The notes under the pieces are model-generated. The model had not been told where the DNA came from and made no database searches. It was given only the letters and a program-made list of their open reading frames with translations. Shown here one piece after another: positions 8,152-30,965 of a DNA stretch of 64,000 bases (within the stretch, counting starts at the first letter, position 1; each line of letters starts with the position of its first letter). Source of the stretch: Oerskovia douganii (GTDB lineage Bacteria > Actinomycetota > Actinomycetes > Actinomycetales > Cellulomonadaceae); assembly GCF_015142735.1 (NCBI RefSeq), contig NZ_JACSPN010000003.1, positions 1 through 64,000 of the forward strand, given 5' to 3'. A program made the translations under genes and the position numbers.

Positions 8152-8169
8152 ATGGGGAGGTCTCCCCAT
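8152..8169. promoter_or_regulatory. 18-bp palindrome, copy 1 of a shared operator candidate
   Basis: Arms ATGGGGAG and CTCCCCAT flank a 2-base centre, giving a perfect inverted repeat. The same pattern recurs at 30543-30560. This copy ends 117 bases before the FN3 gene start, and 34 bases before a TATCCT -10-like element. Position and symmetry suggest a dimeric regulator site. Its function is inferred. Confidence 0.6.
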
Positions 8170-8202: not shown

Positions 8203-8208
8203 TATCCT
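8203..8208 (+). promoter_or_regulatory. Putative -10 element of the FN3/EssC-like operon
   Basis: TATCCT fits the TAnnnT pattern of actinobacterial housekeeping promoters, 79 bases before the GTG start at 8287. There is no good -35 hexamer 17 bases upstream, which would suit activator-dependent transcription from the palindrome at 8152-8169. Confidence 0.35.
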
Positions 8209-15322: not shown

Positions 15323-16798
15323 ATGACCTCGACCGATTCTCCCGTCGCCACCCGTGGCAACCCGCCCGGAGCGGGCGACGCGGCTTCCGCACGCCGCAAC
15401 CCGCCCGGCCCGACGGCGCCGCCCCCTGGGCAGGCCCCCGCGCCTTCTCCCGTCCCCCCGGCTGGCACGGGTCAGCGCGCCGGCGCGCGTCCGCGGCTGC
15501 TCGACCGTCTCCGGCCCGCGACGGGCCCGCGCCGGGCCGGGCCCGGACGTCCCGGGTTCGTGACGCCGTCGGGCGCGGAGGGACGGGTCGAACGCCTGCG
15601 TGCGCTCGTCGCACCCCGGGTCACGGCGGTCAGGACGGGTGCGGCTGCAGCCGTCTCGGTCGTCAGCCCGTTCGGGCGGGCCGTGCTCCTGGGGGTCGTC
15701 GCGGCGTGGTGGGCCGGCCTCGTCCTGTCCTGGGTCGAGCTGCTCGCGGTCGCGACCGTCGCGACCGTCGTCACGCTCGCGGCGATCGCCTTCGTCCGTG
15801 GGACGTTCCGGTACACCGTGAACCTCGACCTGGGACAGCGGCGCGTCACGGTGGGGGACCGGGCCGTGGGCACGCTCGAGGTGAGCAACCAGTCGCAGCG
15901 CCCCCTGCTGCCCGCCGTGATGGAGCTGCCCGTGGGGGCGGGCCTGGCGACGTTCCCCGTGCCGCGCCTGCGGACAGGGGCGACCCACGAGGAGATCTTC
16001 ACGATCCCGACGCACCGGCGGTCGGTCATTCCCGTCGGGCCCGTGCGCTCGGTGCGCGCCGACCCTCTGGGACTGCTGCGTCGCCAGGTCGTGTGGACCG
16101 AGCCCGAGGAGCTGTACGTCCACCCGCGGACCAAGAACCTGACCGGGTCGTCGACGGGGTTCCTGCGCGACCTGGAGGGGCGCGTCACGCAGGACATCTC
16201 CAACTCCGACGTGTCGTTCCACGCCCTGCGGGACTACGTCCCGGGCGACGACCGCCGGCACATCCACTGGAAGACCACCGCCCGCACCGGGCAGCTCATG
16301 GTCCGCCAGTTCGAGGAGACGCGGCGCTCGCACCTCGCCGTCGTGCTCTCGACGAGGGCCGAGGACTACGGGCACCCCGACGAGTTCGAGCTCGCGGTCA
16401 GCTCGTGCGGGTCGCTCGGGCTCCAGGCGATCAAGGAGGATCGTGGCCTCACGGTCCTCGTCAACGACGGCAGCCTGCGCGGTGACAACCGGGTGCGGCT
16501 CCTCGACGACCTGGCGCGCATCGAGGCGCGCCCGCTACGGACGAACCTCATCGACCTTGCGCGCGTCGCGGCCGCGAGCGTCACGGACGCGTCGGTCGTG
16601 GCGCTCGTCGTGGGCAGCGTCGTGTCGCCCACCGAGCTGCGTGCCGCCTCGGCACGGCTGCCGCAGGACGTCCGCGTCATGGCGATCCAGTGCATCCCGG
16701 GGGCGAAGGTCAGTCGCCACCGGATCGCTGAGCTCGTCGTGCTCACCATCGGGGAGCTGGGCGACCTCCCCCTCGCGCTGCGGAGGCTGGACGACTGA
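15323..16798 (+). CDS. DUF58 domain membrane protein
   Basis: This 491-residue protein has a Pro/Ala/Arg-rich N-terminal tail of about 105 residues and two membrane helices near 115-160. A beta-rich region follows, and then the DUF58 core with its signature around DYVPGDDRRHIHWKTTART (about residues 308-326). DUF58 proteins are the usual partners of MoxR ATPases. The frame stays open upstream to 15014 inside moxR, but that is shadow sequence. ATG 15323 directly follows the moxR stop. The stop TGA shares one base with the next ATG (TGATG). The biochemical role of the family is unsettled. Confidence 0.92.
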   Translation: MTSTDSPVATRGNPPGAGDAASARRNPPGPTAPPPGQAPAPSPVPPAGTGQRAGARPRLLDRLRPATGPRRAGPGRPGFVTPSGAEGRVERLRALVAPRVTAVRTGAAAAVSVVSPFGRAVLLGVVAAWWAGLVLSWVELLAVATVATVVTLAAIAFVRGTFRYTVNLDLGQRRVTVGDRAVGTLEVSNQSQRPLLPAVMELPVGAGLATFPVPRLRTGATHEEIFTIPTHRRSVIPVGPVRSVRADPLGLLRRQVVWTEPEELYVHPRTKNLTGSSTGFLRDLEGRVTQDISNSDVSFHALRDYVPGDDRRHIHWKTTARTGQLMVRQFEETRRSHLAVVLSTRAEDYGHPDEFELAVSSCGSLGLQAIKEDRGLTVLVNDGSLRGDNRVRLLDDLARIEARPLRTNLIDLARVAAASVTDASVVALVVGSVVSPTELRAASARLPQDVRVMAIQCIPGAKVSRHRIAELVVLTIGELGDLPLALRRLDD

Positions 16799-19299
16799 TG
16801 ACCGGGAACGACACGCGGGGCCGGATGGCACCGCCCGGCGACTCCGGCAGCGCTGCAGGCCACAGCACGGCGTCGTCGACAGGGACGGGCACCCGCTCCG
16901 CCGGGACGACGGCCCGCTCGACGACCCGTCGACGCGGCGCCGACGCGCCACGCGCCCTGCGGGCGACCGGAGCGGTCGACGCGCTCGCGCTCGTCGTGAT
17001 GCTCGGTGCCGCGCTCCTCGGCTTCGGTCCCGCATGGGGGTCCTGGACGTACCTGCTGCCCGCCGTCGGTGGCGCGGTCCTCGGGCTCGCGGTCGCCTGG
17101 TGCGGCGCCTGGCGGCGATGGAACCTCCTGACCGTCACCGCCGTCGCGATCACGGTGTACGTGCTGCTGGGCGGGCCCTTCGCACTGCCTGCGACGACGG
17201 TCGGCGGGGTGCTGCCCACCCTCGAGACCGTCCGCGGCCTCCTGCTGGGGGCCGTGACCGGGTGGAAGGAGTTCGTCACGACGGCCCTGCCGCTGCAGTC
17301 CTTCCCCGAGCTCGGCGTCGTCCCGTTCCTGCTGCTGTACGTCACGGCGCTCGGCGCAGGGACCCTCGCCTGGCGGGTGCGGGACGCGCACTGGGCCCTC
17401 GTGCCCGTCACCGTCGCGTTCGTCGCGGTCATCCTCCTCGGCAGCATCCTCCCCGCGGTCCCCGTGGTGCAGGGCCTGGTGCTCGTGGTCGTCGGGCTGC
17501 TGTGGGGTGCGTGGCGCGCGACCGAGGCACGGCTGGGCGAGCGCCAGGTCGCCACCGCGGCGAGCATCGTCGCGACCCGGCGACTGCGCTGGCACCGCGC
17601 CCGCGGTGGCGCGATGATGCTGGCGCTCGGTGCCGTCGTCGCCGTCGTCCTGGTGCCCGTGGTGACGCCGGCGACCGAGCGCGTGGTCCTGCGTGAGCAG
17701 ATCGTCCCCCCGCTCGACCTGCACGAGTACGTCAGTCCGCTCGCCTCGTTCCGCAAGTACGCCAAGGAGATGACGGAGGAGGAGCTGTTCACGGTCGACG
17801 GTCTGCCCGCGGGGGCGCGCGTGCGGCTCGCGACGCTCGACGCCTACGACGGGGTCGTCTTCAACGCGTCGACCGGCGCGGGCTCGGGTGTCTTCACCCG
17901 GGCGGGGGACCAGATCGCCACGGTCGCCCAGGGCACACCGACCGATCTGACGGTCACGATCGGCGCCTACGGCGGCGTGTGGGTCCCCGCCGTCGGGGCG
18001 CTCGCGGGCGTCGAGTACGCGGGTGCGCGCACCGAGGCGCTGGGCTCGACCACGTACTACAACTCGACGACGGGGACCGGCGTCGTCACCGCCGGGCTGG
18101 GGCGGGGCGACTCGTACCGGCTCGACGCGGTCGTCGCCCCTGCGCCGTCCGAGGACGCGCTGCGATCGTCGAGGATCGAGGACGAGAAGCTGCCCGCGTG
18201 GACCCAGGTCCCGGACTCGGTGGCCGCCAAGGCCGCGCAGTTCATGGCCGAGGAGACGGATCCCGTCGTGCGGCTCGACAACCTGCGGACCGGGCTCGTC
18301 GCGAGCGGCATCTTCTCGAGCGGGCTCGAGACCCAGCTCCCGTCCCGCCCCGGCCACTCCGCGGAGCGGATCGACACCTTGCTCGCTGCGGACGAGATGG
18401 TCGGCGACGACGAGCAGTTCGCGGTGGCTCTCGCGCTCATGGCACGCTCGGCAGGGATCCCTGCACGGGTCGTGATGGGGTTCTACCCGCCCGAGGGCTG
18501 GGAGGAGGGCACACCCTTCGTCGCGACGGGGGCCGACGTGCACGCCTGGGTCGAGGTCCCGTTCGCGGGCTACGGCTGGGTCGCGGTCGACGCGATCCCG
18601 GAGGAGGACAACAAGATCAAGCCCGAGCCCAAGAGCGACCAGGTCCCCAAGCCGCCCGTGCTCGAGGACCCCGAGCCGCCCGAGGAGCCCGCCGACGCCG
18701 ACGCCGGCGAGGTCGACGAGGACGAGAAGAAGGACGACGCCGAGTCGAAGGGCTTCGACTGGGGCCTGGCGGCCGTCGTCGTCGCCTCGGTCGCGATCCC
18801 TCTGGCCCTGCTCGCCCTGCCGCTCGTGCTGATCCTGGCCCTCAAGGCGAGACGGCGCAGGAGGCGGCGCGAGGCACCGCGTCCCGTCGACCGGATCAGC
18901 GGCGGGTGGCGCGAGGTGCTCGACGTCGCCACGGACCTGGGTGCGCCGGTCACCTCGGGCGCCACGAGGCGCGAGAGCGCGAGAACCTTGACGGAGTCGT
19001 TCCCTGCGGCCGCGACGCCCACGGTCGGGCTCGCGCGCACGGCCGACGCCACGGTCTTCGGCGCGGGCGACCCGAGCCCGCAGGACGTCGACGCCTACTG
19101 GACCGGGGTCGACTCCCTCGTGCAGGGGATGCGTGCCACCTTGCCCCGTCGCCGGCGGGTCCGGGCTGCGCTGTCACTACGATCCTTGCGGGGTGCGCTC
19201 CCTGCCTGGCTCCCTGCCCGGCTGCGGCATCCCCGACCATCCGGGCGGACCGCGAGCACGCCGCCGCCCGGCCCCGTCACGAAACCAGGAGACTCCTGA
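16798..19299 (+). CDS. Transglutaminase-like membrane protein, catalytic Cys apparently replaced by Asp
   Basis: This 833-residue protein has about six N-terminal helices (residues 60-290), a periplasm-facing transglutaminase-like domain at about 430-610, an acidic Pro/Glu/Asp linker (605-650), another helix (about 658-685), and a cytoplasmic tail. The domain keeps ALMARSAGIPARVVMGF, H582 (DVHAWVEVPF) and D598 (GWVAVDAIP). The position normally occupied by Cys in the family pattern G-x-C-E-Q-F-A reads G-D-D538-E-Q-F-A, so a classical Cys-His-Asp triad is missing. It may be a structural or peptide-binding pseudoenzyme. It lies between DUF58 and the RDD/FHA gene with single-base overlaps on both sides. 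Confidence 0.88.
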   Translation: MTGNDTRGRMAPPGDSGSAAGHSTASSTGTGTRSAGTTARSTTRRRGADAPRALRATGAVDALALVVMLGAALLGFGPAWGSWTYLLPAVGGAVLGLAVAWCGAWRRWNLLTVTAVAITVYVLLGGPFALPATTVGGVLPTLETVRGLLLGAVTGWKEFVTTALPLQSFPELGVVPFLLLYVTALGAGTLAWRVRDAHWALVPVTVAFVAVILLGSILPAVPVVQGLVLVVVGLLWGAWRATEARLGERQVATAASIVATRRLRWHRARGGAMMLALGAVVAVVLVPVVTPATERVVLREQIVPPLDLHEYVSPLASFRKYAKEMTEEELFTVDGLPAGARVRLATLDAYDGVVFNASTGAGSGVFTRAGDQIATVAQGTPTDLTVTIGAYGGVWVPAVGALAGVEYAGARTEALGSTTYYNSTTGTGVVTAGLGRGDSYRLDAVVAPAPSEDALRSSRIEDEKLPAWTQVPDSVAAKAAQFMAEETDPVVRLDNLRTGLVASGIFSSGLETQLPSRPGHSAERIDTLLAADEMVGDDEQFAVALALMARSAGIPARVVMGFYPPEGWEEGTPFVATGADVHAWVEVPFAGYGWVAVDAIPEEDNKIKPEPKSDQVPKPPVLEDPEPPEEPADADAGEVDEDEKKDDAESKGFDWGLAAVVVASVAIPLALLALPLVLILALKARRRRRRREAPRPVDRISGGWREVLDVATDLGAPVTSGATRRESARTLTESFPAAATPTVGLARTADATVFGAGDPSPQDVDAYWTGVDSLVQGMRATLPRRRRVRAALSLRSLRGALPAWLPARLRHPRPSGRTASTPPPGPVTKPGDS

Positions 19300-20948
19300 T
19301 GTCCGAGGTCACGATCTGCAGCGCCTGCGGGACGTCGCAGCCGGGGGGATCCGCGTTCTGCGCGGTGTGCGGCACGAAGCTGCCGGGCACGACCCCCCTG
19401 CCCGGCGCGGGCCCTGCGGCTGCCGGACCGGTGCCGGTCCGTGAGCCGGCGATCGCGATCACGACCGAGCGAGAGGTCGCGGCCGCGACCCAGCGCGCCG
19501 GGGCGACGGTGCTCCGGGCATCCGGCGTCGCCGAGCTGCCCGGGGTGCTCGACCGCGCCCCGCTCGCGGGGACGGGGCGCCGGTTCGTGGCGTACCTCGT
19601 CGACCGCACCGCGTCCCTCCTGGTCGTGGGGGCCGCCCTGCTGGGGGGCGCGGCTGCCACCGGGCTCTCGTCCACGGACGTCGCGACCTGGACGGCGGCT
19701 CCGCAGGCGGCCCCGGTCGGCGGGCTCGTGGCAGTGTCCGCGGTGGCGGGCGGACTGGGCCTCGTCTACTGGCTCGGCTCCTGGTTCTGGGAGGGGCGGA
19801 CGGGCAGGACGCTCGGCAACCTCGTGACGGGCATCCGGACGGTGCGCGCCGGGGACCGGGCACCGCTCGGGTTCGGCCGGTCGGCGCTCCGGTGGATCCT
19901 GACGTTCCTCGGCGCGCTCGCCTTCGGTGTGGGCGAGCTGCTGGTGGTCCTGTCCCCGGCGTTCGACGGTGCGCGGCGGAACCAGGGCTGGCAGGACAAG
20001 GCGGCCGACGCCCTCGTGCTCGACGCCCGAGGGGCGCAGGGGCCGCAGCCGTCGCAGGTCGCGGCCGCGTCGGGACCCTACGGGATGCTGGCCGGCGGAA
20101 CGGCTGCCGAGACGAGGGTGAGCGCAGGGCGCGGGCCGCATCCTTCCGCGCACCCCCCGGCCCAGCCGGTGCCGCAGGGGTGGGCTCCCTCCGGCCGGGC
20201 CCCCGCGGAGCCGGTCCCGGTTCCGGGCACGTCCCCCGACCCGTGGGCCTTCCCGCAGGCGGGTGCGGACGCCACGGACGGCCCCGGTCCCTTGATCACG
20301 GGGGTGCCCGGGAGCGGACGACCAGCGGCTCCGGCGCAGGTCGACCTCGAGGTGGCCGCGCTGCCGCAGGGCGCGGCGTGGACCGAGGCCCCCGTCTTCA
20401 CCCCGGCCGCACCGGCGGAACCGCCCGCGCGCCAGGGGACCGGGGCGTCCGACGTGTCCGCGGCGTCCCCGACGGGGGTCGAGGTCGACCGGGCCGCTGC
20501 GTCCGCCGCCCTCGCAGCGACGATCGTGCCGGTCGAGGAGCCGGACTGGGACTCGACCCGGCTGAGCGCGCAGGACCTCCGGCGGGAGAGCGGTTCAGTG
20601 TCGACCGTCGCCGCCGGCGTCGAGCTCGAGCTGGAGTCGGGGCTCCGGGTCGCGGTCTCGGGGTCCGCTCTCGTGGGACGCAACCCGCAGACGCAGGACG
20701 AGGGCCCGAGCACGCTCGTCCGTGTCGACGACCCGACGCGCTCGGTCTCCAAGACGCACGCGGAGCTGGGGTTCGACGCCTCAGGACTGTGGGTCCAGGA
20801 CCGAGGGTCGACGAACGGCACGGTCCTTGCCCGGCCGGACGCCTCCCCGGTCGTGCTCGAGGCGGGCGTCCGTGTTCCCGTACCTGTGGGATCCGTGATC
20901 CAGGTCGGCGACCGGCGCATCGTCGTGCATCCTGGTCGACCCGCATGA
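19299..20948 (+). CDS. Zinc-ribbon, RDD and FHA domain membrane protein
   Basis: This 549-residue three-part protein starts with a zinc ribbon in residues 1-30 (two CxxC pairs, CSAC and CAVC). An RDD membrane domain follows at about 88-245 (GRRFVAYLVDRTASLLVVGA, then an EGRTGRTLGNLVTGIRTV segment). Next is a Pro/Ala-rich linker of about 190 residues, then a C-terminal FHA domain at about 445-549 with GRNP, SKTHAEL and DRGSTNGT motifs that form the phosphothreonine-binding loops. It is probably a membrane-tethered reader of kinase-phosphorylated partners. ATG 19299 overlaps the previous stop by one base; the upstream open frame is shadow. The stop overlaps the PP2C start by four bases (ATGA). 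Confidence 0.92.
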   Translation: MSEVTICSACGTSQPGGSAFCAVCGTKLPGTTPLPGAGPAAAGPVPVREPAIAITTEREVAAATQRAGATVLRASGVAELPGVLDRAPLAGTGRRFVAYLVDRTASLLVVGAALLGGAAATGLSSTDVATWTAAPQAAPVGGLVAVSAVAGGLGLVYWLGSWFWEGRTGRTLGNLVTGIRTVRAGDRAPLGFGRSALRWILTFLGALAFGVGELLVVLSPAFDGARRNQGWQDKAADALVLDARGAQGPQPSQVAAASGPYGMLAGGTAAETRVSAGRGPHPSAHPPAQPVPQGWAPSGRAPAEPVPVPGTSPDPWAFPQAGADATDGPGPLITGVPGSGRPAAPAQVDLEVAALPQGAAWTEAPVFTPAAPAEPPARQGTGASDVSAASPTGVEVDRAAASAALAATIVPVEEPDWDSTRLSAQDLRRESGSVSTVAAGVELELESGLRVAVSGSALVGRNPQTQDEGPSTLVRVDDPTRSVSKTHAELGFDASGLWVQDRGSTNGTVLARPDASPVVLEAGVRVPVPVGSVIQVGDRRIVVHPGRPA

Positions 20949-21787
20949 ACCGGGCGGGCACCGGGCTGCGGCTCGCGTGGGGAGCGAGCTCGCACCGTGG
21001 GGTGCGGCGGCTCCTCAACGAGGACAGCTTCCTCGCGGACCGCTCGGTGTTCTTCGTCGCCGACGGCATGGGTGGGCACGACGCCGGAGAGGTCGCGAGC
21101 GCTGCGGCGATCGACGCGCTCAGGCCCCTCGGGGAGCTGACGACCGTCTCGCCCGAGGACGTGCGCGGTCGGCTCGTCGTGGCTCAGGACGACGTCCGGG
21201 CCATCAGCACGGAGCCGGGTCGGGGCGCCGGGACGACGGTCACGGGCGTCGTCGTCGCCCAGATGGAGGGAATGCCGTACTGGCTCGTGGTCAACATCGG
21301 CGACTCCCGCACCTACCAGATGTCCCGCGGCACGCTCGAACAGCTGAGCGTGGACCACTCGGAGGTCCAGGAGATGGTCGACGCGGGCACCCTCACGGCG
21401 ACCGAGGCGGTGACCCACCCGCGGCGCCACGTCGTCACGCGCGCAGTCGGGGCGTCGCTCCCGCCCGAGCCCGACTTCTGCTGGATCCCGATCGAGTCCA
21501 GGGACCGGATGCTCGTCTGCTCCGACGGCCTGACGGGCGAGCTCTCGGACGAGCGCATCACCGAGATCCTGCTCGCTCAACCCGATCCCCAGGTCGCAGC
21601 CGACCACCTCGTCAACGAGGCGATCGTGGCCGGTGGGCGGGATAACATCACTGTCGTCGTCGTGGACGCGACCGGGGCATGGGAGGACACCAGCGACGGT
21701 TCCACGACCCCCCGGGACACCACGGGGCACACGGACGACGACACCTTGCCGCGAGAGTTGCACCTGCAGAGGAGGGACCGGTCGTGA
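20945..21787 (+). CDS. PP2C-family Ser/Thr protein phosphatase
   Basis: This 280-residue cytoplasmic phosphatase opposes the Ser/Thr kinase encoded downstream. Metal-binding motifs are complete: the VRRLLNEDSF segment, D40-G-M-G-G-H-D (residues 40-46), SDGLTGELSD, and the C-terminal GGRDNITVVVVD. The catalytic domain fills residues 8-250 with only a short hydrophilic tail, as in soluble PstP/PrpC-type enzymes without a membrane anchor. ATG 20945 overlaps the preceding stop and the stop overlaps the next GTG, both by four bases, so stoichiometric expression with the FHA proteins and kinase is likely. Confidence 0.95.
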   Translation: MNRAGTGLRLAWGASSHRGVRRLLNEDSFLADRSVFFVADGMGGHDAGEVASAAAIDALRPLGELTTVSPEDVRGRLVVAQDDVRAISTEPGRGAGTTVTGVVVAQMEGMPYWLVVNIGDSRTYQMSRGTLEQLSVDHSEVQEMVDAGTLTATEAVTHPRRHVVTRAVGASLPPEPDFCWIPIESRDRMLVCSDGLTGELSDERITEILLAQPDPQVAADHLVNEAIVAGGRDNITVVVVDATGAWEDTSDGSTTPRDTTGHTDDDTLPRELHLQRRDRS

Positions 21788-23565
21788 GACTGCGCTACGA
21801 CACCGGGAGCGCGTTCGGTTTCGTCCGGGGCGGTGCGATCGTGATCCTTCCGGAGGGCGCCTCGAACGAGCTGGTCGGCCGCCTGTGGGACGGTCTCGAC
21901 ACGGCGGGCGAGGCGGAGATCGAGGTGATCGAGGTCATCCAGCTCCTGACCGTCGTCCTGGGGGCGACGCTGCGCACCATGCCACCGTTCGCGGTGGCGG
22001 TCACGTCCGAGGGTCGCGCTCAGGTCGCCGTCCGCGGCCAGGTCTCGGTCACGCTGCGCACGTCCACAGCGAGCGTCCACGTGGACGGGGACGACGTGAG
22101 CACATGGTCCGAACGACTCGTCGAGGACGTCGAGGAGGTGTCCGTCCAGCTCGGCGTGGACGAGGCGCCGTCGCTCGAGGCGGGCCCGGGGCAGGTCGCC
22201 CTGGTCGGCCTGCCGCTCCACGAAGGGGTCGTGCTGGCCTCGCGCATCCTCCGGGATCTCGTCGGTGCACCGGTGGCGCGCCCGCCCGAGGTCGGTACGG
22301 ACGAGCTGGGCCGACCGGAGCCGGCCCCCGCAGCGGGCACCTCCACGCCCGCTCCCGTCCACCCGCACGGGGCCCTCGCGCCCGGGTCGACGACGCCGGC
22401 GCTCGTCGCGTGGTCCGAGCCGGTCGCGCTCGCGGACGGCGACCCCGCGCCCGTGCAACCCGACGCCCACGTGCCGGCCGAGGACGGTGAGCCCGCGCCG
22501 CCGCAGCCGGACCCCCGCCTGTCGACCGAGTCGTTCGGGGCGTCCTTCGGGGCGGTCGAGACGATCATCTCGCTCGACACGGCTCTCGAGCGCACGGTCG
22601 CGCCCGACGGCGCCCGCGGGGCGGCCGAGGCGGTCGAGGACGGCTACGGTCACCTGTGGGAGTCGACGGTCCTGCGGGCCGTCGAGGACGCGGCCGTGCG
22701 CATCGACGAGGACGAGGACGAGGAGCACGCGACCCCGGGCGCCCTCGCCCCCGCACCGGTGACCGAGGCGGCAGCGTCGGTCTCGCCGGCAGCGCCGGTC
22801 GAGCCGCCCGCGCAGGTCGTCGAGACGGCCGCCTCGTGCACGACCCTGATCGACGGGATCCCCCGCGAGTGGGCTGGGACGTCCGGCGATCCCGTGCCGG
22901 TCTCCGTGGGCGGCGACGTCCACGGCCCGGTCGAGAGCGACGGCGCCGCAGAGCTGCCGGTGGACGGCGTGACCGACACCGTCGACCACGACGGCCACAC
23001 CGTCTTCTCGTCCGTGATCGCCGATCTCCGGGCCCAGGTCGCCGGGGTCCCGAATCCCGTCCCGCCGCCGGTCGGTCCGACCTTCACCCCACCCCCGCCG
23101 CCAGGGGCGCAGCAGATCCTGGCCCGTGCGTGCCCGGACGATCACCCGAACCCTCCGTCGCGGGACGTCTGCGGGGTGTGCGGCGCCCCTCTCCATGGCG
23201 ACGCCCGGCTGGTGACCCGACCCTCCTTGGGGCGCATCGTGCTGTCCACCGGCCAGGTGGTCGAGCTCGACCGGCCGGTGGTGCTCGGGCGCAGACCGCG
23301 CACCACCCGAGCACAGAGCAACGACCTTCCCCGTCTGGTCGCGGTCCCCAGCCCGGAGCAGGACATCTCCCGCTCGCACCTGGAGATCCAGCTCGAGGGA
23401 TGGCACGTGCTGGTCTGCGACCTCAGCACGACCAACGGCACCACGCTGCTGCGTCCAGGCCAGCCGCCCCGGCGTCTGCACCCGGGGGAGCCCACCATGG
23501 TCGCGTCGCACGACGTCGTGGACGTCGGTGACGGCGTCACGTTCGTCCTCGAGGGGTTGCTGTGA
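21784..23565 (+). CDS. FHA-domain protein with internal zinc-binding cysteines
   Basis: This 593-residue protein has an N-terminal alpha/beta region of about 150 residues (RLRYDTGSAFGFVRGGAIVI) that I do not recognise. A long Ala/Pro/Glu-rich linker follows (about 170-430). A short cysteine cluster sits near 450-470 (ACPDDHPNP...CGVCGAPL). The C-terminal FHA domain at about 480-593 has GRRPRTT, DISRSHLEI and CDLSTTNGTTLL motifs. The layout resembles FHA adaptors in Ser/Thr-kinase operons of actinobacteria. GTG 21784 overlaps the phosphatase stop, and the stop overlaps the kinase start. No membrane segment is visible. It is likely a cytoplasmic phosphothreonine adaptor; its partner is unknown. 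Confidence 0.85.
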   Translation: MRLRYDTGSAFGFVRGGAIVILPEGASNELVGRLWDGLDTAGEAEIEVIEVIQLLTVVLGATLRTMPPFAVAVTSEGRAQVAVRGQVSVTLRTSTASVHVDGDDVSTWSERLVEDVEEVSVQLGVDEAPSLEAGPGQVALVGLPLHEGVVLASRILRDLVGAPVARPPEVGTDELGRPEPAPAAGTSTPAPVHPHGALAPGSTTPALVAWSEPVALADGDPAPVQPDAHVPAEDGEPAPPQPDPRLSTESFGASFGAVETIISLDTALERTVAPDGARGAAEAVEDGYGHLWESTVLRAVEDAAVRIDEDEDEEHATPGALAPAPVTEAAASVSPAAPVEPPAQVVETAASCTTLIDGIPREWAGTSGDPVPVSVGGDVHGPVESDGAAELPVDGVTDTVDHDGHTVFSSVIADLRAQVAGVPNPVPPPVGPTFTPPPPPGAQQILARACPDDHPNPPSRDVCGVCGAPLHGDARLVTRPSLGRIVLSTGQVVELDRPVVLGRRPRTTRAQSNDLPRLVAVPSPEQDISRSHLEIQLEGWHVLVCDLSTTNGTTLLRPGQPPRRLHPGEPTMVASHDVVDVGDGVTFVLEGLL

Positions 23566-25322
23566 GCAGCAAGCGTGCGCCGTCTGCGCCACCGCTGATC
23601 GACGGCTACGAGTACGTGTCGGTCATCGGGTCCGGGGGTTTCTCCGACGTCTTCCTCTACCAGCAGCAGCGCCCTCGACGTCGGGTCGCGGTCAAGGTCC
23701 TCCTGCACGAGTGGTCGAGCGAGTCGCAGCGCGCGGCGTTCGACGTCGAGGCGGACCTCATGGCCACGTTGTCGACCCACCCGTCGATCGTCACCATGTA
23801 CGAGGCCGACGTCGCCGAGGACGGCCGCCCGTACCTCGCGATGGAGTACTGCTCCAGGCCGAACCTCGGCGCCCGCTACCGGTCGGAGCGGCTCAGCGTC
23901 GCCGAGGCGCTGCGCATCGCGGTGCAGATCGCCGGTGCGGTCGAGACGGCGCACCGCGCCGGGATCCTGCACCGCGACATCAAGCCGGCGAACATCCTCG
24001 TGACCGAGTACGGGCACCCGGCTCTCACGGACTTCGGCATCTCCTCGACCATGGACGACGCCTCCCGTGCCGAGGGCATGTCGATCCCGTGGTCCCCCCC
24101 GGAGTCCTTCGCCGACGACCCGTGGGCGGGCAAGGAGACCGATGTCTGGGCGCTCGCGGCCACGACCTACACGCTCCTCGCGGGGCGGGCGCCGTTCGAG
24201 CTCCCCGGCGGGTCCAACTCGAGCGCGAGCCTCATCACCCGGATCGAGTCGACGCCGCTCGTCCCGACGGGCCGGACCGACGTCCCCGCCTCCCTGGAGC
24301 GGGTCCTCGGGACGGCCATGGCGAAGAGCCCGGCCTCGCGCTACCCCACCATGCTCGCCTTCGCGCGAGCGCTCCAGCAGGTCCAGAACGAGCTCTCGCT
24401 GGCGGTCACCCCGCTCGACGTCCTCGCCGACTCGGGGCTCGCGCAGGAGGAGGAGGTCGACGACGACGGAGGTACGCGGCTGCGTGCCGTCGTGTCGATC
24501 GACCCGCGCGGTCCCGGCCTCGGCGGCAGACTTCCTGCCGGCGGTGCGTCGACGACGAGCGGCACGGCCCCCGTCGTCCGCCACGACCCTGGCGTCCCCG
24601 CCGCGGCAGCGGTCCGAGGGAGCCTCGCACCCGACGCGTCCGCGGGGCCCGGGCGTCTCGCCGACGCCGCCCCGGCCGTGCTCCTCGGCCCGGCACCTGC
24701 GCACCCGACCCGTGCGGCCTCGTCGGGCACCGGGTACGCCCCGCCGCGGCCCGACGCACGGGGGTCCGGCCATGCCGGGACAGGGCTCGCGCCCGTCGCC
24801 CCGTGGGGCCCGCCCGCCGACGACACCGTGCATCGCGCCCCCGAGGCAGCACCGACCGCCGAGCCGGCCCCGCGGACGCACAGGCGCGCGCTCTGGCCTC
24901 TCCTCGGGGGGCTCGGGGTGGTGCTGCTCGTGATCGTCGGAGCCGTCGCGCTCCTCACGGGCGAGGGGGCCGGGCCCGGCGCACCAGGTACGACCGCAGT
25001 CGAGGAGCCCGACCTCGTGCCGCCCCCCAACGACAACCTCGGCGACCTGGTGCCGCTTCCCCAGGACATGCAGTCCCGCTACGACGAGGCCGCGGGCAAC
25101 GCGGTCTTCACGTGGGAGCCGCCCGAGGGAGCCGCAGCCGACCTCTCCTACGCCTGGCAACGCCTCGACGTGACCAAGGAGACCGTCCCCGTCCCCCTGC
25201 CCGCCGGCACGTCGTCGCTGGAGATCCCCGCCGGCGCGACCGAGACCGTCTGTGTCGCCGTCCGCGCCGTGCAGGACGGCAGACCGTCGGAACCCGTCCA
25301 GGAATGTGTGAACAACCCATGA
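23562..25322 (+). CDS. Transmembrane Ser/Thr protein kinase with FN3-like extracellular domain
   Basis: This 586-residue Hanks-type kinase has a glycine loop GSGGFSDVF (about residues 22-30), the VAVKVL lysine K45, catalytic loop H137-R-D139-IKPAN, DFG aspartate D157, and an SPPE activation-segment end. After the kinase domain (about 12-285) comes a disordered Pro/Ala/Gly-rich stretch, one helix at about 447-470 (LGGLGVVLLVIVGAVALL), and an external domain of about 115 residues. That domain has the strand pattern of FN3 (NAVFTWEPPEG...YAWQRL...VCVAVRAV). PASTA repeats, usual in actinobacterial PknB, are absent. It is comparable to Pkb2 of the bifidobacterial PFNA cluster. The GTG start and the stop both overlap neighbours by four bases. 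Confidence 0.94.
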   Translation: MSSKRAPSAPPLIDGYEYVSVIGSGGFSDVFLYQQQRPRRRVAVKVLLHEWSSESQRAAFDVEADLMATLSTHPSIVTMYEADVAEDGRPYLAMEYCSRPNLGARYRSERLSVAEALRIAVQIAGAVETAHRAGILHRDIKPANILVTEYGHPALTDFGISSTMDDASRAEGMSIPWSPPESFADDPWAGKETDVWALAATTYTLLAGRAPFELPGGSNSSASLITRIESTPLVPTGRTDVPASLERVLGTAMAKSPASRYPTMLAFARALQQVQNELSLAVTPLDVLADSGLAQEEEVDDDGGTRLRAVVSIDPRGPGLGGRLPAGGASTTSGTAPVVRHDPGVPAAAAVRGSLAPDASAGPGRLADAAPAVLLGPAPAHPTRAASSGTGYAPPRPDARGSGHAGTGLAPVAPWGPPADDTVHRAPEAAPTAEPAPRTHRRALWPLLGGLGVVLLVIVGAVALLTGEGAGPGAPGTTAVEEPDLVPPPNDNLGDLVPLPQDMQSRYDEAAGNAVFTWEPPEGAAADLSYAWQRLDVTKETVPVPLPAGTSSLEIPAGATETVCVAVRAVQDGRPSEPVQECVNNP

Positions 25323-26017
25323 GCGACCTTGCGATCGAGTTCTGCGGCGAGTGGTTCCGGCCCGCCAAGGGCGGGACGTTCGACATCGGGCGGGACGGTG
25401 ACCTCGAGATCGAGGACAACCCCTACCTGCACCGTCACTTCCTGCGGGTCACGCACGAGAGCGGCATCTGGTGGCTCGCGAACGTGGGCTCGCTGATCTC
25501 CGCGACGGTCTGCGACACCGGTGGTGGAGTGCAGTCGTGGCTGTCACCCGGCAACCGGCTGCCCCTCGTGTTCCCCTCGATGTCCGTCGTCTTCACCGCC
25601 GGGCCGACCACCTACGAGCTCCTGGTCCAGCTCCAGGGTGCGCCCTACCAGGAGATCCGCTCCGCGGAGACCCCGGACGGCGCCACGACGATCGGCGCCG
25701 TCGCCTTCACGACGACCCAGAAGCAGCTCGTCCTGGCACTCGCGGAGTCGGTCCTGCGCCGCGACGGGACGGGACTCTCCGAGATCCCGACCTCGGCCGA
25801 CGCGGCCCGCAGGCTCGGGTGGGCGACCACGCGCTTCAACCGCAAGCTCGACAACGTGTGCGAGAAGCTCGACCGCATGGGCGTCAAGGGCCTGCGCGGG
25901 GGAGTCGGGGCGCTCGCCACCAACCGGCGAGCACGCCTCGTCGAGTACGCGGTCGCGTCCCGCCTGGTCACCGCCCAGGACCTGCCCCTGCTCGACCTGG
26001 TCGACGAGACCGCCTGA
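25319..26017 (+). CDS. FHA protein with C-terminal winged-helix-like domain (candidate regulator)
   Basis: In this 232-residue protein, residues of about 1-105 show an FHA-type beta sandwich (FDIGRDGDLEIEDN followed by LHRHFLRV, matching the GR and S/H loop positions). Residues of about 125-232 are helical with a helix-turn-helix appearance: FTTTQKQLVLALAESVL, then TSADAARRLGWATTRFNRKL, then a wing-like VKGLRGG. It has no membrane segment. I infer a phosphopeptide-sensing DNA-binding protein or adaptor. The palindromes at 8152 and 30543 are natural candidate targets, but no binding is shown. ATG 25319 overlaps the kinase stop. The EssC-like gene starts 36 bases downstream. Confidence 0.75.
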   Translation: MSDLAIEFCGEWFRPAKGGTFDIGRDGDLEIEDNPYLHRHFLRVTHESGIWWLANVGSLISATVCDTGGGVQSWLSPGNRLPLVFPSMSVVFTAGPTTYELLVQLQGAPYQEIRSAETPDGATTIGAVAFTTTQKQLVLALAESVLRRDGTGLSEIPTSADAARRLGWATTRFNRKLDNVCEKLDRMGVKGLRGGVGALATNRRARLVEYAVASRLVTAQDLPLLDLVDETA

Positions 26018-26053: not shown

Positions 26054-29000
26054 GTGCGTCTGAAGATGACCCTGGTGCGCCACGACGGCACGACCGACGA
26101 CATCGTCGTCACGGCCGACGCCGGGAGCTCGGTGGGCGATGTCGCCCGGGCGATCGCCGTACGGGACCCCAGGAACATGGGCTCGCTGGTGGACGTTCCC
26201 CCGCTCACGCTGCGGGCCCAGCTTCCCGGCCAGGAGCAGTCCGTCGTGCTGGAACCGGACATCCCCATCGGGGAGGCATGGCTCGGTTCGGGAGCCGTCG
26301 TGCACCTCCTCGACGCGGCTCGCGCCGCCGGGTCCACGGGCGACGTCCAGAACGTCATGGCCCGCGTCCAGGTCGTCGCTGGGCCCGACACCGGGCTGCG
26401 ACGCGATCTCGTCGCCGGCCGCTACACGGTCGGTCGGGCGGCGGGGTGCGACCTCGTGCTGTCGGACCCCCTGGTCTCGAAGAAGCACGCCAGGATCGAC
26501 GCCTCGGACCGCACGGAGGTCGTCGACCTGGGCTCCGCGAACGGCATCGTCGTCGACGGGGGCCTCGTGAACCGGTTGCGGGTCGACCGGCCGCAGACCA
26601 TGGTCCTGGGTGACTCCGTCCTCGTCGTCGAACCGCTCGGCAGCGCGGTGGGCGGCCCCGTCGCGGGCCCGGTGCCCTTCAACCGGTCGCCCAAGGTCGA
26701 GCCGCGCTATGCCGGGGAGAAGTTCGCGGCGCCGACGGCCCCGCAGGAGGAGGAGCCGCAGACCTTCCCCGTCCTCGCACTCATCGCTCCGGTCGTGCTG
26801 GGCCTCGCCATGTACTTCGTCACGCAGCGGCCGACCGCGCTGCTGTTCATCCTCATGAGCCCCCTCATGCTCATCGGCAACTACGTGACCGAGCGCAAGC
26901 GTCGCCGCCGCCGCCGGGAACGGGACGTCAAGCGGTTCGACGAGCGGCTCGACGGGTTGCGCACCGCCCTGCGCGACGAAGAGGTGGCCGAGCGTGCCGC
27001 GCGGCTCCAGGAGGCGCCGGCGACGCCGCTCACCCTGGCAGAAGGGCTGCGGCGCGGTCCGTTGCTCTGGACGCGCCGCCCGGAGCACTGGTCCTTCCTC
27101 AACGTCCGGCTCGGGCTCGGCTCGATGCCCTCGCGCAACGAGGTCGAGCTCCCCGGGCGCGGCGAGATGCTCCCCGAGTTCCAGGAGCGCCTGGACACGT
27201 TGGTCGACCAGCACCGACGCGTCGCGGGCGTCCCCGTGGTCGAGAACCTGCACGACGCGGGCGCGCTCGGGCTGGCCGGGCCGAAGAACCTGGTCGAGCC
27301 GGTCCTGAACTCGGTGCTCGTCCAGCTCACGGTGCTGCACTCGCCCGCGGACCTCGTGGTCTGCTCGCTCGTGACACCGACCTGGTCGCGGTCGCTCGAG
27401 TGGCTCAAGTGGATGCCGCACACGTCGACGACGACGAGCCCGATCGACGGCAACCACCTCGCCGACAGCGCCAGCAGCGGTGCTGTCCTCCTGGCCCAGC
27501 TCGAGGAGCTGATCCGTAGCCGGCTCGCCGAGAAGCGGGATCGGGTCACGCGGCGGGGAGCGGCCCGGACACGGGACGCGGCCCTCGAGCGCGGCGCGAG
27601 CGTCGGGGAGAGCGGGGGCGTCGCCGTCGAGGGGACGAGCTCGCCGCTCCCCGCGGTCGTGGTCCTGGTGTCCTCCGAGGCCGACGTCGACCGTGCACGG
27701 CTGGCGCAGCTCGCGGAGACGGGGCCCGACGCGGGGGTCTTTCCCGTCTGGGTCGCCGACGCCGTGCGGGGGCTTCCCGCCACGTGCCGCACCTACGTCG
27801 AGGTCGAGCCCGACCGCGCGACGGTCGGCATGGTCCGCCTCGGCTTGACGGTGGACGACGTGGAGCTCGAGACGGTCGACGCACCCTCCGCGGTCGAGTA
27901 CGGCCGCCGCATGGCGCCCGTGTTCGACGCCGGGGTGGTCGACGAGGACGCGAGCGACCTGCCGCGCACCGTCTCCCTGCTGACCCTGCTGGGTACGGAC
28001 ATGGCCGTCTCGAGCGACGCCGTGATCGACCGCTGGAACCAGAACCTCTCGATCACGGACCGCACCCCCGGAGCCGTCCCGAGGCGTCGGCGCGCCGGGG
28101 GACTCCGCGCGCTCGTCGGCTCGGCCGGGTCCGACGCGATGCAGCTCGATCTGCGCACGCACGGGCCGCACGCCCTCGTGGGCGGGACGACGGGTTCGGG
28201 CAAGAGCGAGTTCCTCCAGGCATGGGTGCTGGGGATGGCTGCCGAGTACAGCCCGGACAGGGTCACGTTCCTGTTCGTCGACTACAAGGGCGGGTCGGCG
28301 TTCGCGGACTGCGTCCAGCTCCCGCACTGCGTCGGCCTCGTGACGGACCTCTCGCAGCACCTCGTGCGGCGTGCCCTGACGAGCCTGCGAGCAGAGCTCC
28401 ACCACCGCGAGCACCTGTTCAACCGGAAGAAGGCCAAGGACATCCTCGAGCTCGAGAAGCGCGGGGACGTGGACACGCCTCCCGCCCTCGTGATCGTCAT
28501 CGACGAGTTCGCGGCGCTCGTCTCGGACGTCCCCGACTTCGTGGACGGCGTCGTGGACATCGCGCAGCGCGGGCGCTCGCTCGGCATCCACCTCATCATG
28601 GCGACCCAGCGTCCGGCCGGGGTCATCCGGGACAACCTGCGCGCCAACACGAACCTCCGGGTCGCGCTGCGCATGGCCGACGAGTCCGACTCGTCCGACG
28701 TCGTGGGGACCCCCGATGCGGCGCACTTCGATCCCGGGCTACCGGGTCGCGGGCTGGCGAAGACGGGACCCGGCCGGGTCCGTCCGTTCCAGTCGGCCTA
28801 CGCCGGGGGGTGGACCTCCGACGAGGCGCAGCCGCTGCGCATCGAGGTCGCGGCGCTCAGGTTCGGCGGGGAGATCCTCTGGGACGCCCCGCAGCCGGCG
28901 GTGGTGCCCGAGGAGAAGGACCTGGGGCCCAACGACCAGCAGCGCCTCGTGGCGTGCATCGGGGCCGCGAGCCGGCGCGCGGAGATCCCGAGCCCGCGCC

Positions 29001-30535
29001 GCCCGTGGCTCGACGAGCTCGCGACGACCTACGACCTCTCGAGGCTGCGCCAGCGGACGGACACCGAGCTCCTGATCGGGGTCGGCGACGTCCCCGAGCG
29101 CCAGGTGCAGACGCCCGTCTACTTCGAGCCCGACGTCGACGGGCACGTGGCCGTCTACGGCACCGGCGGGTCCGGCAAGAGCACGACGCTGCGGACCCTG
29201 GGGATCGCGGCCGGCATCACACCGCGCAGCGGGCCCGTGCACGTCTACGCGCTCGACTTCGCCGCGGGCGGGCTGAGGATGCTCGAGGTGCTCCCGCACG
29301 TCGGGGCGGTCGTCGGCTCCGACGACGTCGAGCGGGTCGTGCGGACGCTGCGCATGGTGCGCCACGAGCTCGACCGTCGGGGCGAGGCCTACGCCCAGGT
29401 CTCCGCCGCGTCGATCACCGAGTACCGCAAGCTGGCGAACGTCCCGGACGAGCCGCGCATCCTGCTCCTCGTCGACGGGTTCCCGACGTTCCGCGAGGAC
29501 TTCGAGGTCGGGGCCGGGCGCGCCGCCTGGTACGACGTGTTCCGGGACGTCCTCACGGACGGGCGCGGCCTCGGCATCCACGTGGCCTTCACGGCGGACC
29601 GGTCAGGAGCCGTGCCGTCGTCGGTACGGTCCAACGTGCAGCGGAACATCGTCCTGCGCCTCGCCGACGACAGCTACGGGCTGTTCGACGTCCCGGGCGA
29701 CATCCTCGGGCCGTCCTCGCCCCCCGGTCGTGCGATCGTCGATGGTTCGGAGGCTCAGGTCGCGATCATCGGGGGCAGTCGCGTGGTCGCCGACCAGTCG
29801 CTCGCGACGAAGCGGCTGGCGCGAGCGATGGTCGAGGCGGGCGTCCGTGCGGCACCGCGCATCGAGTCGCTGCCCAAGGAGTACGGGCCCGAGGTCCTGC
29901 CGGACGCGCTCCAGGGCTACCCCGTGCTGGGGCTCGGCGACGCGGACCTCGCCCCGCTCGGGTTCGAGCCCACCGGGTCCTGCCTGATCGCGGGATCTCC
30001 CGGATCGGGACGGACCAATGCTCTGGCGGCGGTCGTGAGCGCCGTCCGTCGCGCCGATCCGGGGGTGCAGACCTATCTGGTCAGCAACCCGCGGTCGCCG
30101 CTCGCAGGCGCGCCCGGCTGGACCGAGGTGGCGCTCTCGACCGACGACACCGTGGCGCTCGCGAAGCGGATCTCGGCCCGGGTCGCCGAGGGCGCCGAGG
30201 GGGAGCGGGTCGCGGTCTTCGTCGAGGGGATCAACGACTATCTCCAGTCGCCGGCCGATGCTCCGCTCGTGGAGCTCGTCAAGACGATCAAGCGGCACGG
30301 GCACCTGGTCGTCGCCGAGGCGGAGTCCTCCGGGTGGAGCTCGGCCTGGCCGCTCATGACCGAGTTCAAGAATGCGCGTCGAGGCCTCATCCTCCAGCCG
30401 GACGGCGCCGAGAGCGAGCTGCTCCTCAAGACACCCACAGCCCGGGCGCAGAGGTCCGAGTTCCCGCCCGGTCGGGGGGTCTACGTCGCTCGCGGGACCG
30501 CCGCCCGGGTCCAGCTGCCGTTGATGCCTGCATGA
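26054..30535 (+). CDS. EssC/EccC-like FtsK/SpoIIIE secretion ATPase with N-terminal FHA domain
   Basis: This 1493-residue membrane ATPase is close to EssC length (about 1480) and is the likely motor of a type VII secretion system. Residues 1-90 are beta-grasp-like. An FHA domain follows at about 115-200 (YTVGRAAGCD, SKKHARID, GSANGIVV). Two helices lie near 235-275. The remainder carries three FtsK-type domains. Domain 1 has an intact Walker A (GGTTGSGK with K717) and Walker B (VIVIDEF). Domain 2 has Walker A K1042 (GTGGSGKS) but LLLVDGF instead of an acidic pair. Domain 3 has GSPGSGR, with Arg1320 replacing the Walker lysine. GTG 26054 is preceded by an AAGAAGAGG ribosome-binding region. No EccB/D/E or EssA/B homologue is encoded in the window. 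Confidence 0.93.
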   Translation: MRLKMTLVRHDGTTDDIVVTADAGSSVGDVARAIAVRDPRNMGSLVDVPPLTLRAQLPGQEQSVVLEPDIPIGEAWLGSGAVVHLLDAARAAGSTGDVQNVMARVQVVAGPDTGLRRDLVAGRYTVGRAAGCDLVLSDPLVSKKHARIDASDRTEVVDLGSANGIVVDGGLVNRLRVDRPQTMVLGDSVLVVEPLGSAVGGPVAGPVPFNRSPKVEPRYAGEKFAAPTAPQEEEPQTFPVLALIAPVVLGLAMYFVTQRPTALLFILMSPLMLIGNYVTERKRRRRRRERDVKRFDERLDGLRTALRDEEVAERAARLQEAPATPLTLAEGLRRGPLLWTRRPEHWSFLNVRLGLGSMPSRNEVELPGRGEMLPEFQERLDTLVDQHRRVAGVPVVENLHDAGALGLAGPKNLVEPVLNSVLVQLTVLHSPADLVVCSLVTPTWSRSLEWLKWMPHTSTTTSPIDGNHLADSASSGAVLLAQLEELIRSRLAEKRDRVTRRGAARTRDAALERGASVGESGGVAVEGTSSPLPAVVVLVSSEADVDRARLAQLAETGPDAGVFPVWVADAVRGLPATCRTYVEVEPDRATVGMVRLGLTVDDVELETVDAPSAVEYGRRMAPVFDAGVVDEDASDLPRTVSLLTLLGTDMAVSSDAVIDRWNQNLSITDRTPGAVPRRRRAGGLRALVGSAGSDAMQLDLRTHGPHALVGGTTGSGKSEFLQAWVLGMAAEYSPDRVTFLFVDYKGGSAFADCVQLPHCVGLVTDLSQHLVRRALTSLRAELHHREHLFNRKKAKDILELEKRGDVDTPPALVIVIDEFAALVSDVPDFVDGVVDIAQRGRSLGIHLIMATQRPAGVIRDNLRANTNLRVALRMADESDSSDVVGTPDAAHFDPGLPGRGLAKTGPGRVRPFQSAYAGGWTSDEAQPLRIEVAALRFGGEILWDAPQPAVVPEEKDLGPNDQQRLVACIGAASRRAEIPSPRRPWLDELATTYDLSRLRQRTDTELLIGVGDVPERQVQTPVYFEPDVDGHVAVYGTGGSGKSTTLRTLGIAAGITPRSGPVHVYALDFAAGGLRMLEVLPHVGAVVGSDDVERVVRTLRMVRHELDRRGEAYAQVSAASITEYRKLANVPDEPRILLLVDGFPTFREDFEVGAGRAAWYDVFRDVLTDGRGLGIHVAFTADRSGAVPSSVRSNVQRNIVLRLADDSYGLFDVPGDILGPSSPPGRAIVDGSEAQVAIIGGSRVVADQSLATKRLARAMVEAGVRAAPRIESLPKEYGPEVLPDALQGYPVLGLGDADLAPLGFEPTGSCLIAGSPGSGRTNALAAVVSAVRRADPGVQTYLVSNPRSPLAGAPGWTEVALSTDDTVALAKRISARVAEGAEGERVAVFVEGINDYLQSPADAPLVELVKTIKRHGHLVVAEAESSGWSSAWPLMTEFKNARRGLILQPDGAESELLLKTPTARAQRSEFPPGRGVYVARGTAARVQLPLMPA

Positions 30536-30542
30536 CGGGCTG

Positions 30543-30560
30543 ATGGGGACATCTCCCCAT
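30543..30560. promoter_or_regulatory. 18-bp palindrome, copy 2 of the shared operator candidate
   Basis: ATGGGGA and TCCCCAT arms flank CATC. The sequence matches the palindrome at 8152-8169 in 16 of 18 positions. It ends 105 bases before the WXG100 gene (117 in copy 1), and 23 bases before a TAGGGT -10-like hexamer. That spacing is one helical turn (10 bp) shorter than in copy 1, so the same face of the helix would be presented. Confidence 0.6.
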
Positions 30561-30583: not shown

Positions 30584-30589
30584 TAGGGT
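30584..30589 (+). promoter_or_regulatory. Putative -10 element of the WXG100 gene
   Basis: TAGGGT lies 76 bases upstream of ATG 30666. The -35 position (TTCGCC, 30561-30566) directly abuts the palindrome at 30543-30560, so a bound regulator would touch RNA polymerase. Confidence 0.4.
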
Positions 30590-30665: not shown

Positions 30666-30965
30666 ATGGCCAACGTGAACGTGACGTTCGACGAGATGCG
30701 CGACGCCGCGACCCGCCTCCGCCAGGGCCAGGAGGACGCCACCCGGATCCTGCTGGTCGAGCTCAAGTCCCAGGTCGACGCCCTGGTCTCGAGCGGCTTC
30801 GTGACCGACCAGGCGTCGGGTGCCTTCCAGGCGTCCTACGAGCAGTTCGCCACGGGTGCCGCGCAGGTCCTCGAGGGCCTCGACGGGATGGCGACCTACC
30901 TGGTCACCGCTGCTGACACGCTGCAGCAGACGGACGCCCAGCTCGCGCAGGGCATCCGCGGCTGA
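30666..30965 (+). CDS. WXG100/ESAT-6-like small protein (putative type VII secretion substrate)
   Basis: This 99-residue all-helical protein has the size and hairpin layout of WXG100 substrates: a first helix MRDAATRLRQGQEDATRIL, a turn around VSSGFVTDQASGAF, and a second long helix to the C terminus. The central W-x-G tripeptide is not present; SSGF occupies the turn. The call therefore rests on length, the A-x-x-F pattern and position just after an EssC-like gene. ATG 30666 follows an AAGGGGAA ribosome-binding site. An upstream in-frame extension to 30543 overlaps the palindrome and promoter and is rejected. A strong hairpin follows at 30985-31011, so this product may be made in excess of the downstream genes. 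Confidence 0.75.
   Translation: MANVNVTFDEMRDAATRLRQGQEDATRILLVELKSQVDALVSSGFVTDQASGAFQASYEQFATGAAQVLEGLDGMATYLVTAADTLQQTDAQLAQGIRG

Follow-up and report, generated by a model that had tools for sequence, protein, structure and literature searches.

An FHA and helix-turn-helix protein as candidate activator of a kinase, phosphatase and type VII secretion gene cluster in Oerskovia douganii

Introduction

What switches on a gene cluster that combines a Ser/Thr kinase, a PP2C phosphatase and components of type VII secretion? This question is raised by a stretch of 64,000 nucleotides from Oerskovia douganii (contig NZ_JACSPN010000003.1, positions 1 to 64,000 of the forward strand; referred to as the window), in which a gene for a protein of 232 aa (25319-26017, plus strand) sits between the gene of a kinase and that of an EccC/EssC-type ATPase. 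A previous sequence-only reading had regarded this protein, here termed FHA-HTH after its FHA sandwich and its predicted helix-turn-helix (HTH), as a possible phospho-controlled transcription factor and as the best candidate binder of two palindromes in the window. In the available portions of the work on the related T7SSd and PFNA systems, the switching on of the cluster as well as a role of the kinase in transcription are left open (PMC11217815, PMC8430577).

The comparative analysis described here suggests that FHA-HTH is a sequence-specific activator that specifically serves the kinase/phosphatase/secretion cluster encoding it and acts via the palindrome, a reading to which a probability of roughly 0.75 is assigned. 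Regarding its parts, direct binding of FHA-HTH to DNA appears highly probable and activation of transcription probable. The support is comparative, comprising the co-occurrence of protein and palindrome, the placement of the palindrome and the promoter spacing. We infer direct binding and activation, and phospho-control with Thr124 as acceptor is proposed. Across the order and into other classes, the results link an unannotated protein family to a DNA site, to a promoter geometry and to numerous candidate targets. If true, this would provide a testable route from Ser/Thr kinase signaling to gene expression and an unusually sharp and testable regulon, in which the palindrome alone could nominate type VII substrates by sequence search.

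Co-occurrence of the palindrome with FHA-HTH

The palindrome, in the following called the box, has the consensus ATGGGGA-N4-TCCCCAT. A pattern search recovered it at the two places named previously, i.e., 8152-8169 (box 1, ATGGGGA-GGTC-TCCCCAT) and 30543-30560 (box 2, ATGGGGA-CATC-TCCCCAT), and these are exactly the two perfect copies of the 4.25-Mb genome, both within the cluster. With up to two mismatches, the genome contains 9 matches in comparison to 4 for the control, and the weak sites of this genome are therefore not trusted. Likewise, a shuffle control restricted to the window with up to three mismatches was not significant (2 found, 1.36 expected).

Out of 59 related genomes, this one included, 34 contain homologues of FHA-HTH, as do 171 of 396 genomes sampled from the order, 7 of these 171 by weak matches. 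Among these 396 genomes, 109 feature a perfect box, and 107 of them also carry FHA-HTH; at the level of single sites, 343 of 346 perfect boxes fall in FHA-HTH-carrying genomes. In the two genomes with a perfect box and without the protein, the sites are located inside predicted open reading frames (ORFs). The reversed box, serving as control pattern, occurred in a single genome (1/396). The association yields a Fisher p of 3e-48 with the relatedness of the genomes being ignored, and it recurs inside six families, in which 66 of 102 carriers and 0 of 101 non-carriers possess a perfect box (by family 11/12 vs 0/23, 16/26 vs 0/7, 3/7 vs 0/27, 8/16 vs 0/18, 13/19 vs 0/15, and 15/22 vs 0/11). Furthermore, 57 strong carriers lack a perfect box, and 44 of them contain a one-mismatch box instead (reversed control 5/57). 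In family f4, which is bifidobacteria-like by a guess, neither FHA-HTH nor a perfect box was found among the genomes searched.

The idea that the box generally marks the MoxR/DUF58/transglutaminase (TGM) backbone was rejected, as backbones without FHA-HTH lack it. A transglutaminase match occurs in 71 of 80 FHA-HTH-negative genomes, and in 52 of these 71 the match is strong (E 1e-45 or better); none of these 52 contains a perfect box and 6 contain a one-mismatch box (control 2/52). At the level of loci, 20 transglutaminase loci without FHA-HTH were examined as fetched stretches of 20 kb, and even with two mismatches allowed, none of them contains a box; one (L269) shows the exact core of 10 bases at a distance of over 3 kb upstream of MoxR. 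The loci contained MoxR (19), DUF58 (20), TGM (20), PP2C (7), an FHA protein (6), the ATPase (5), and the kinase (3), and only one (L264) keeps MoxR, DUF58, TGM, PP2C, FHA and kinase together.

Box placement and promoter geometry

A set of homologous loci, consisting of the window and 80 named loci (81 records), allowed the placement of the box to be followed. Perfect boxes amounted to 45 copies in 37 records, with none found for 60 scrambled palindromes, and boxes with at most one mismatch to 74 copies in 55 records, for which the scrambled palindromes average 0.22 (60 tried). The other 26 records are devoid of any such box, some loci stopping short of certain cluster promoters. Many of the boxes in this set occupy the interval from the ATPase gene to the WXG100 gene or precede WXG100 genes by about 100 bases. 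In altered gene orders, boxes occur 14-116 bases beyond the end of the FHA-HTH match, overlapping the 3' end of the gene in some loci, or 142-177 bases upstream of the PP2C match. The box thus stays with the cluster when its gene order is rearranged.

Both boxes of the window precede a -10-like hexamer on the plus strand, namely TATCCT at 8203-8208, 33 bases past box 1, and TAGGGT at 30584-30589, 23 bases past box 2. This spacing is recurrent: counted from the end of the box, the pattern TANNNT begins at an offset of 22 or 23 in 34 of 62 de-duplicated cluster sites (background 0.0007 per offset), and 9 further ones have it a helical turn later, at 32-34. Of 71 de-duplicated perfect sites, chosen solely by their listed position, 39 feature TANNNT at 22/23 on one side, with 0.6 expected. 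The bases between box and hexamer revealed no -35 consensus. Taking the hexamer as -10 element, the box centre lies near -43, which is the place of activators overlapping the -35 region. The fixed spacing together with the missing -35 consensus consequently suggests activator geometry. The direction of control, left open by the sequence-only reading, can be addressed in this way, since the promoter geometry points to activation.

The same positions would suit a different sign of control, with FHA-HTH binding the box as a repressor, or with a sign varying by promoter, and the kinase signal causing release. The boxes abut the place of the -35 element, a position that would also suit a repressor, the distance to the -10-like hexamer differs between box 1 (33) and box 2 (23), and in a genome of another class, G528, the box is found directly ahead of the FHA-HTH gene, as is the case for many autorepressors. 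However, a fixed spacing in the absence of a -35 consensus suggests promoters needing help, and the second spacing peak corresponds to one helical turn further upstream, so that repression is considered unlikely, albeit the strongest of the alternatives.

The candidate targets were surveyed by assigning 76 perfect sites (in L122-L193) to 71 neighboring ORFs, 9 of them hand-corrected. WXG100 genes are the commonest box-linked targets (27 of 71 ORFs in Pfam, among the best 25 of 43 families), followed by WXG100_2 (7) and EspC (5), the counts of which overlap. Perfect boxes were further located 134 bases upstream of flgB (L124 and L143-L145, in G168, G253, G302, and G401) and near flagellin/FlgN genes (L139 and L165, in G344 and G023), and these boxes raise the possibility that motility belongs to the regulon in certain lineages. 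In L130, L173, L178, and L185, perfect boxes precede small predicted membrane proteins, KTKW/KADxxxATANKY-like by eye, which represent possible surface targets. Elsewhere in the genome of the window, the one-mismatch site C29:22806 was noticed 97 bases upstream of an ORF that combines a calpain-type protease domain with a sub-threshold N-terminal WXG100 match.

Fold and distribution of the protein

The FHA-HTH gene starts with an ATG within ATGA, the TGA of which terminates the kinase ORF (23562-25322), resulting in the 4-base overlap reported before. The translation contains the strings IGRDGD and LHRHF, which had been taken as signs of an FHA-like sandwich, as well as TSADAARRLGWATTRFNRKL. 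An AlphaFold2 model, built from an alignment (A1) of 58 homologues with a mean predicted local distance difference test (pLDDT) score of 85.6, bears out the sandwich, with strands between residues 3 and 106 (25325-25636). Comparison of this part with solved structures gave 6ccd as best Foldseek match (E 1.4e-5) and 5yyz as best VIA match (Z 8.6, root-mean-square deviation (rmsd) 2.2 over 93 residues), and it also included the FHA domain of EmbR (2fez; VIA Z 8.2, rmsd 2.1 over 92 residues). A linker follows at residues 116-131 (25664-25711), of which the first ten are disordered (pLDDT below 50 at 116-125). The C-terminal part is predicted to comprise helix 132-147, strand 152-155, helices 159-166 and 170-186, a loop of lower confidence, and helices 203-213 and 219-226, the HTH-like domain covering residues 132-213 (25712-25957). 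TSADAARRLGWATTRFNRKL maps to helices 159-166 and 170-186, i.e., the predicted helix-turn-helix, the second of them (25826-25876) being the proposed recognition helix. In the model, a confidently predicted FHA sandwich is thus followed by a disordered linker and a putative helix-turn-helix. A single-sequence model of the C-terminal part alone (mean pLDDT 71) differed in its helix layout from the alignment-based model, and its fold matches were left unused.

By sequence, the protein showed no Pfam or NCBIfam match at E up to 1. The Pfam FHA family PF00498 was matched neither by it nor by any of the 58 family members. A sequence search of the PDB gave no match, and five profile matches (E 0.45-1.3) were chance-like. 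The closest named homologue records belong to Oerskovia and are about 90% identical, and the distant relative L194 aligned to the family profile with an hhalign probability of 98 over 209 columns. Further occurrences of the family deserve mention. The sole match in 72,556 plasmid records is 65% identical and lies on a replicon of Arthrobacter that measures 1.35 Mb and is filed as a plasmid (NZ_AP024648.1:1113416-1114093). In G018 (C1:131633-132599), the FHA and HTH halves match separately at a distance of about 310 bases, indicating a split gene or a frameshift; this genome retains three one-mismatch boxes. Distant relatives in L202 and L204 (family f15) adjoin another kinase-like ORF, and the kinase/FHA-HTH pairing may accordingly extend beyond the secretion cluster.

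Minimal cassettes in other classes

A search of 246 genomes across the phylum identified full-length orthologues outside the class in four genomes, sharing 47-55% identity. In G528, a perfect box is situated about 40 bases upstream of an FHA-HTH/kinase pair, and in G448, a core box lies 85 bases upstream of PP2C in the order PP2C-FHA-HTH-kinase. The fetched stretches of both showed no match to ATPase, WXG100, DUF58, MoxR or transglutaminase; the box thus appears to travel with FHA-HTH and kinase rather than with secretion genes. G622 features one-mismatch boxes 3' of the FHA-HTH gene as well as upstream of PP2C, there at a distance of about 100 bases. A second box-like site in G528 (L227:7301-7318, CGGGGGAAGTCTCCCCAT) was observed 44 bases upstream of a 469-aa ORF without Pfam match.

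These cassettes bear on whether another DNA-binding protein occupies the box, with FHA-HTH being its co-inherited partner or adaptor. Co-occurrence is no proof of contact, 2 of the 109 perfect-box genomes are devoid of FHA-HTH, and two adjoining cluster proteins are possible nucleic-acid binders, with a weak zinc-ribbon match in the product of 19299-20948. Against this, the sites of the two exceptions are those inside predicted ORFs, the boxes of G528 and G448 adjoin FHA-HTH and kinase, with or without PP2C, with no other cluster gene found there, and FHA-HTH is the sole cluster product with an HTH-like region. A different binder is therefore rated as improbable. The assertion that no other cluster product has an apparent DNA-binding fold agrees with Pfam, which shows no DNA-binding domain in the other proteins of 8287-30965, zinc ribbons not having been checked for DNA binding. 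The choice of FHA-HTH as best candidate for the palindromes is hence well supported on comparative grounds by the co-occurrence, the loci without the protein and the cassettes of other classes. Very improbable is a structural or assembly function in the secretion system with a protein-binding helical domain and no DNA binding, which would fit the gene position between kinase and ATPase and the post-transcriptional work of FHA proteins in other secretion systems, as the available text of PMC7002343 describes, but which conflicts with the tie of FHA-HTH to a DNA element and its occurrence without a nearby ATPase in G448 and G528.

Proposed mechanism and phospho-control

For FHA-HTH as activator, the following mechanism is favored. 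A dimer, assumed owing to the two-fold symmetry of the site, would use its C-terminal helix-turn-helix to bind ATGGGGA-N4-TCCCCAT. With the centre of the box about 43 bases upstream of the presumed transcription start, bound FHA-HTH would replace the -35 element; recruitment of RNA polymerase is suggested because of the spacing between box and -10. FHA-HTH would turn on the run of fn3, MoxR, DUF58, TGM, PP2C, kinase, FHA-HTH and ATPase genes, thus including its own gene, together with WXG100 genes. Phosphorylation, most simply of linker Thr124, might be recognized by the FHA domain of the same subunit or of its partner, and this recognition would change DNA binding.

The overlap with the kinase gene and the PP2C gene in the same run hint at how FHA-HTH is set. 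Concerning the phosphopeptide site, its Gly-Arg is kept in all 58 family members (G24, R25). Thr124 (codon 25688-25690) is invariant as well (58/58), Thr123 is found in 55/58 and the motif ETT in 14/58, and four other-class orthologues and six aligned distant relatives possess a Thr aligned with T124. The pair falls in the low-confidence stretch of the linker. In GarA, according to the available text, the phosphorylation sites belong to an ETTS motif of an unstructured extension that is bound by its own FHA domain (PMC5448819). By analogy, T124 is a good, if tentative, candidate for a GarA/OdhI-like acceptor, and control of FHA-HTH by the cluster kinase is plausible, with about even chances. 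A more general and speculative view would be a self-contained Ser/Thr counterpart of a two-component system, consisting of a membrane kinase, a PP2C phosphatase and FHA-HTH as response factor, in which the phosphorylated linker Thr is captured by the own or the partner's divergent FHA domain and switches the dimer on the box. The cassettes of G448 and G528 would then represent the core, and secretion and surface modules the lineage-specific cargo.

Observations weighing against the activator

Several observations count against FHA-HTH as a dedicated, phospho-controlled activator. Regarding the box, 13 of the 57 strong carriers that lack a perfect copy are devoid of a one-mismatch copy, too, the 22/23 spacing is absent at 32 of the 71 perfect sites, and G549 contains the core only, directly 3' of the ATPase gene. 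Most of the 20 loci without FHA-HTH cannot be regarded as the same cluster minus one gene, given their low shares of kinase (3/20) and PP2C (7/20). Boxed genes among the 71 ORFs also include those for a flagellar rod protein (4), TetR (2), and, singly, MraZ, a transporter and others. Moreover, a WXG100 gene of the own genome (G000:C22:289242-289493, L241) has no box and perhaps belongs to a second system under other control.

Concerning the DNA-binding part, HTH_8 matches were found in 18 of 58 family members and were sub-threshold only (best E 0.025). When ten proteins were scanned individually, four of them showed this match, placed at residues 160-181. Of nine distant relatives, five matched the HrcA winged helix, in each case under the curated cut-off (E 0.0013-0.0094). 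No fold search of FHA-HTH models returned an HTH match, which for the whole model is taken as no evidence because the FHA part fills the match list. The winged-helix or HTH-like C-terminus claimed earlier consequently stays a prediction, which draws on a modeled layout that would suit a tri-helical core with a strand ahead of helix 2, on the helices at TSADAARRLGWATTRFNRKL and on these sub-threshold matches, and it lacks a counterpart in the fold searches. In the FHA part, the canonical Ser position is His38 in 58/58, the canonical His position is Phe41 in 57/58, and the canonical Asn is lost in the alignment, these positions being assigned by eye. Since two canonical residues are replaced and the third is lost, phospho-control is kept as a proposal; of the phospho-controlled transcription factor put forward by the sequence-only reading, the role as transcription factor gains from the comparison and the phosphorylation does not to the same extent.

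Gene cluster

The genes of the cluster from 8287 to 30535 are co-directional on the plus strand and separated by short gaps or overlapping. According to Pfam, they encode a large Ig/cadherin/fn3 protein (8287-14325, its start being set by an own ORF script), a MoxR-type AAA ATPase (14344-15318), a DUF58 protein of uncertain start (15560-16798), a TgpA-like transglutaminase (16798-19299), the RDD/FHA protein with the weak zinc-ribbon match (19299-20948), a PP2C phosphatase (20945-21787), and an FHA protein (21784-23565). The Ser/Thr kinase and the EccC/EssC-type ATPase with N-terminal FHA domain (26054-30535), both assigned by Pfam and NCBIfam, enclose FHA-HTH, as previously described, and a WXG100 gene follows next on the same strand (30666-30965; Pfam). 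The first approximately 90 residues of the ATPase (26054-26320), ahead of its FHA domain, are ubiquitin-like by eye; T7SSd is said to have no ubiquitin-like protein in the available text of PMC11217815.

Comparison with known systems

Among FHA proteins in transcription control, EspM, the ESX-1 transcription factor of mycobacteria, is similar in its N-terminal FHA domain, C-terminal DNA-binding half and control of type VII secretion, and is described in the available text as a protein of 363 residues with two HTH domains and a helical bundle (PMC7002343, PMC11005418). Membership of FHA-HTH (P0001) in this family was rejected on the basis of its missing NF052403 match; the match at 26369-26614 is that of the FHA domain of the ATPase. 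An EspM-like C-terminal half was rejected, too, as the family profile aligned to L206, an EspM-like stand-in itself below the family cut-off, with an hhalign probability of 0.4 over 37 FHA columns only. EmbR of mycobacteria is likewise a transcription factor that contains an FHA domain and has a cognate Ser/Thr kinase. Its order is N-terminal winged helix, BTAD domain and C-terminal FHA domain, whereas FHA-HTH, as modeled, has the FHA domain first and no middle domain. FHA-HTH would work like EspM or EmbR and is a member of neither. ArnA, an archaeal repressor, reportedly is another FHA protein in transcription control; by its description alone, it is set apart by a different architecture and domain of life. 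The titles listed by literature searches, subscription papers being outside the scope, included none pointing to the FHA-HTH protein or its box.

Like GarA/OdhI, FHA-HTH is an FHA protein in which a disordered stretch carries two conserved Thr residues. GarA acts on enzymes and has its motif at the N-terminus according to the available text (PMC5448819), whereas FHA-HTH has its Thr in the linker that joins the FHA and HTH parts, and its FHA pocket differs from the canonical one.

Regarding the cluster as a whole, the T7SSd features of an ATPase with N-terminal FHA domain, a WXG100 protein, a membrane kinase and a large Ig-like protein were all recognized in the window. In the available text, T7SSd comprises five named components without an FHA-HTH protein, in contrast to the present cluster, which adds PP2C, MoxR, DUF58 and TGM (PMC11217815). 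The PFNA operon of bifidobacteria, in turn, features genes for kinase, fn3, AAA-ATPase, DUF58, TGM, phosphatase and FHA proteins, with no FHA-HTH protein named in the available text (PMC8430577). In its predicted make-up, the cluster thus resembles T7SSd joined to a PFNA operon, and a T7SSd/PFNA-like regulon with FHA-HTH as transcription activator appears to be the best reading of this locus.

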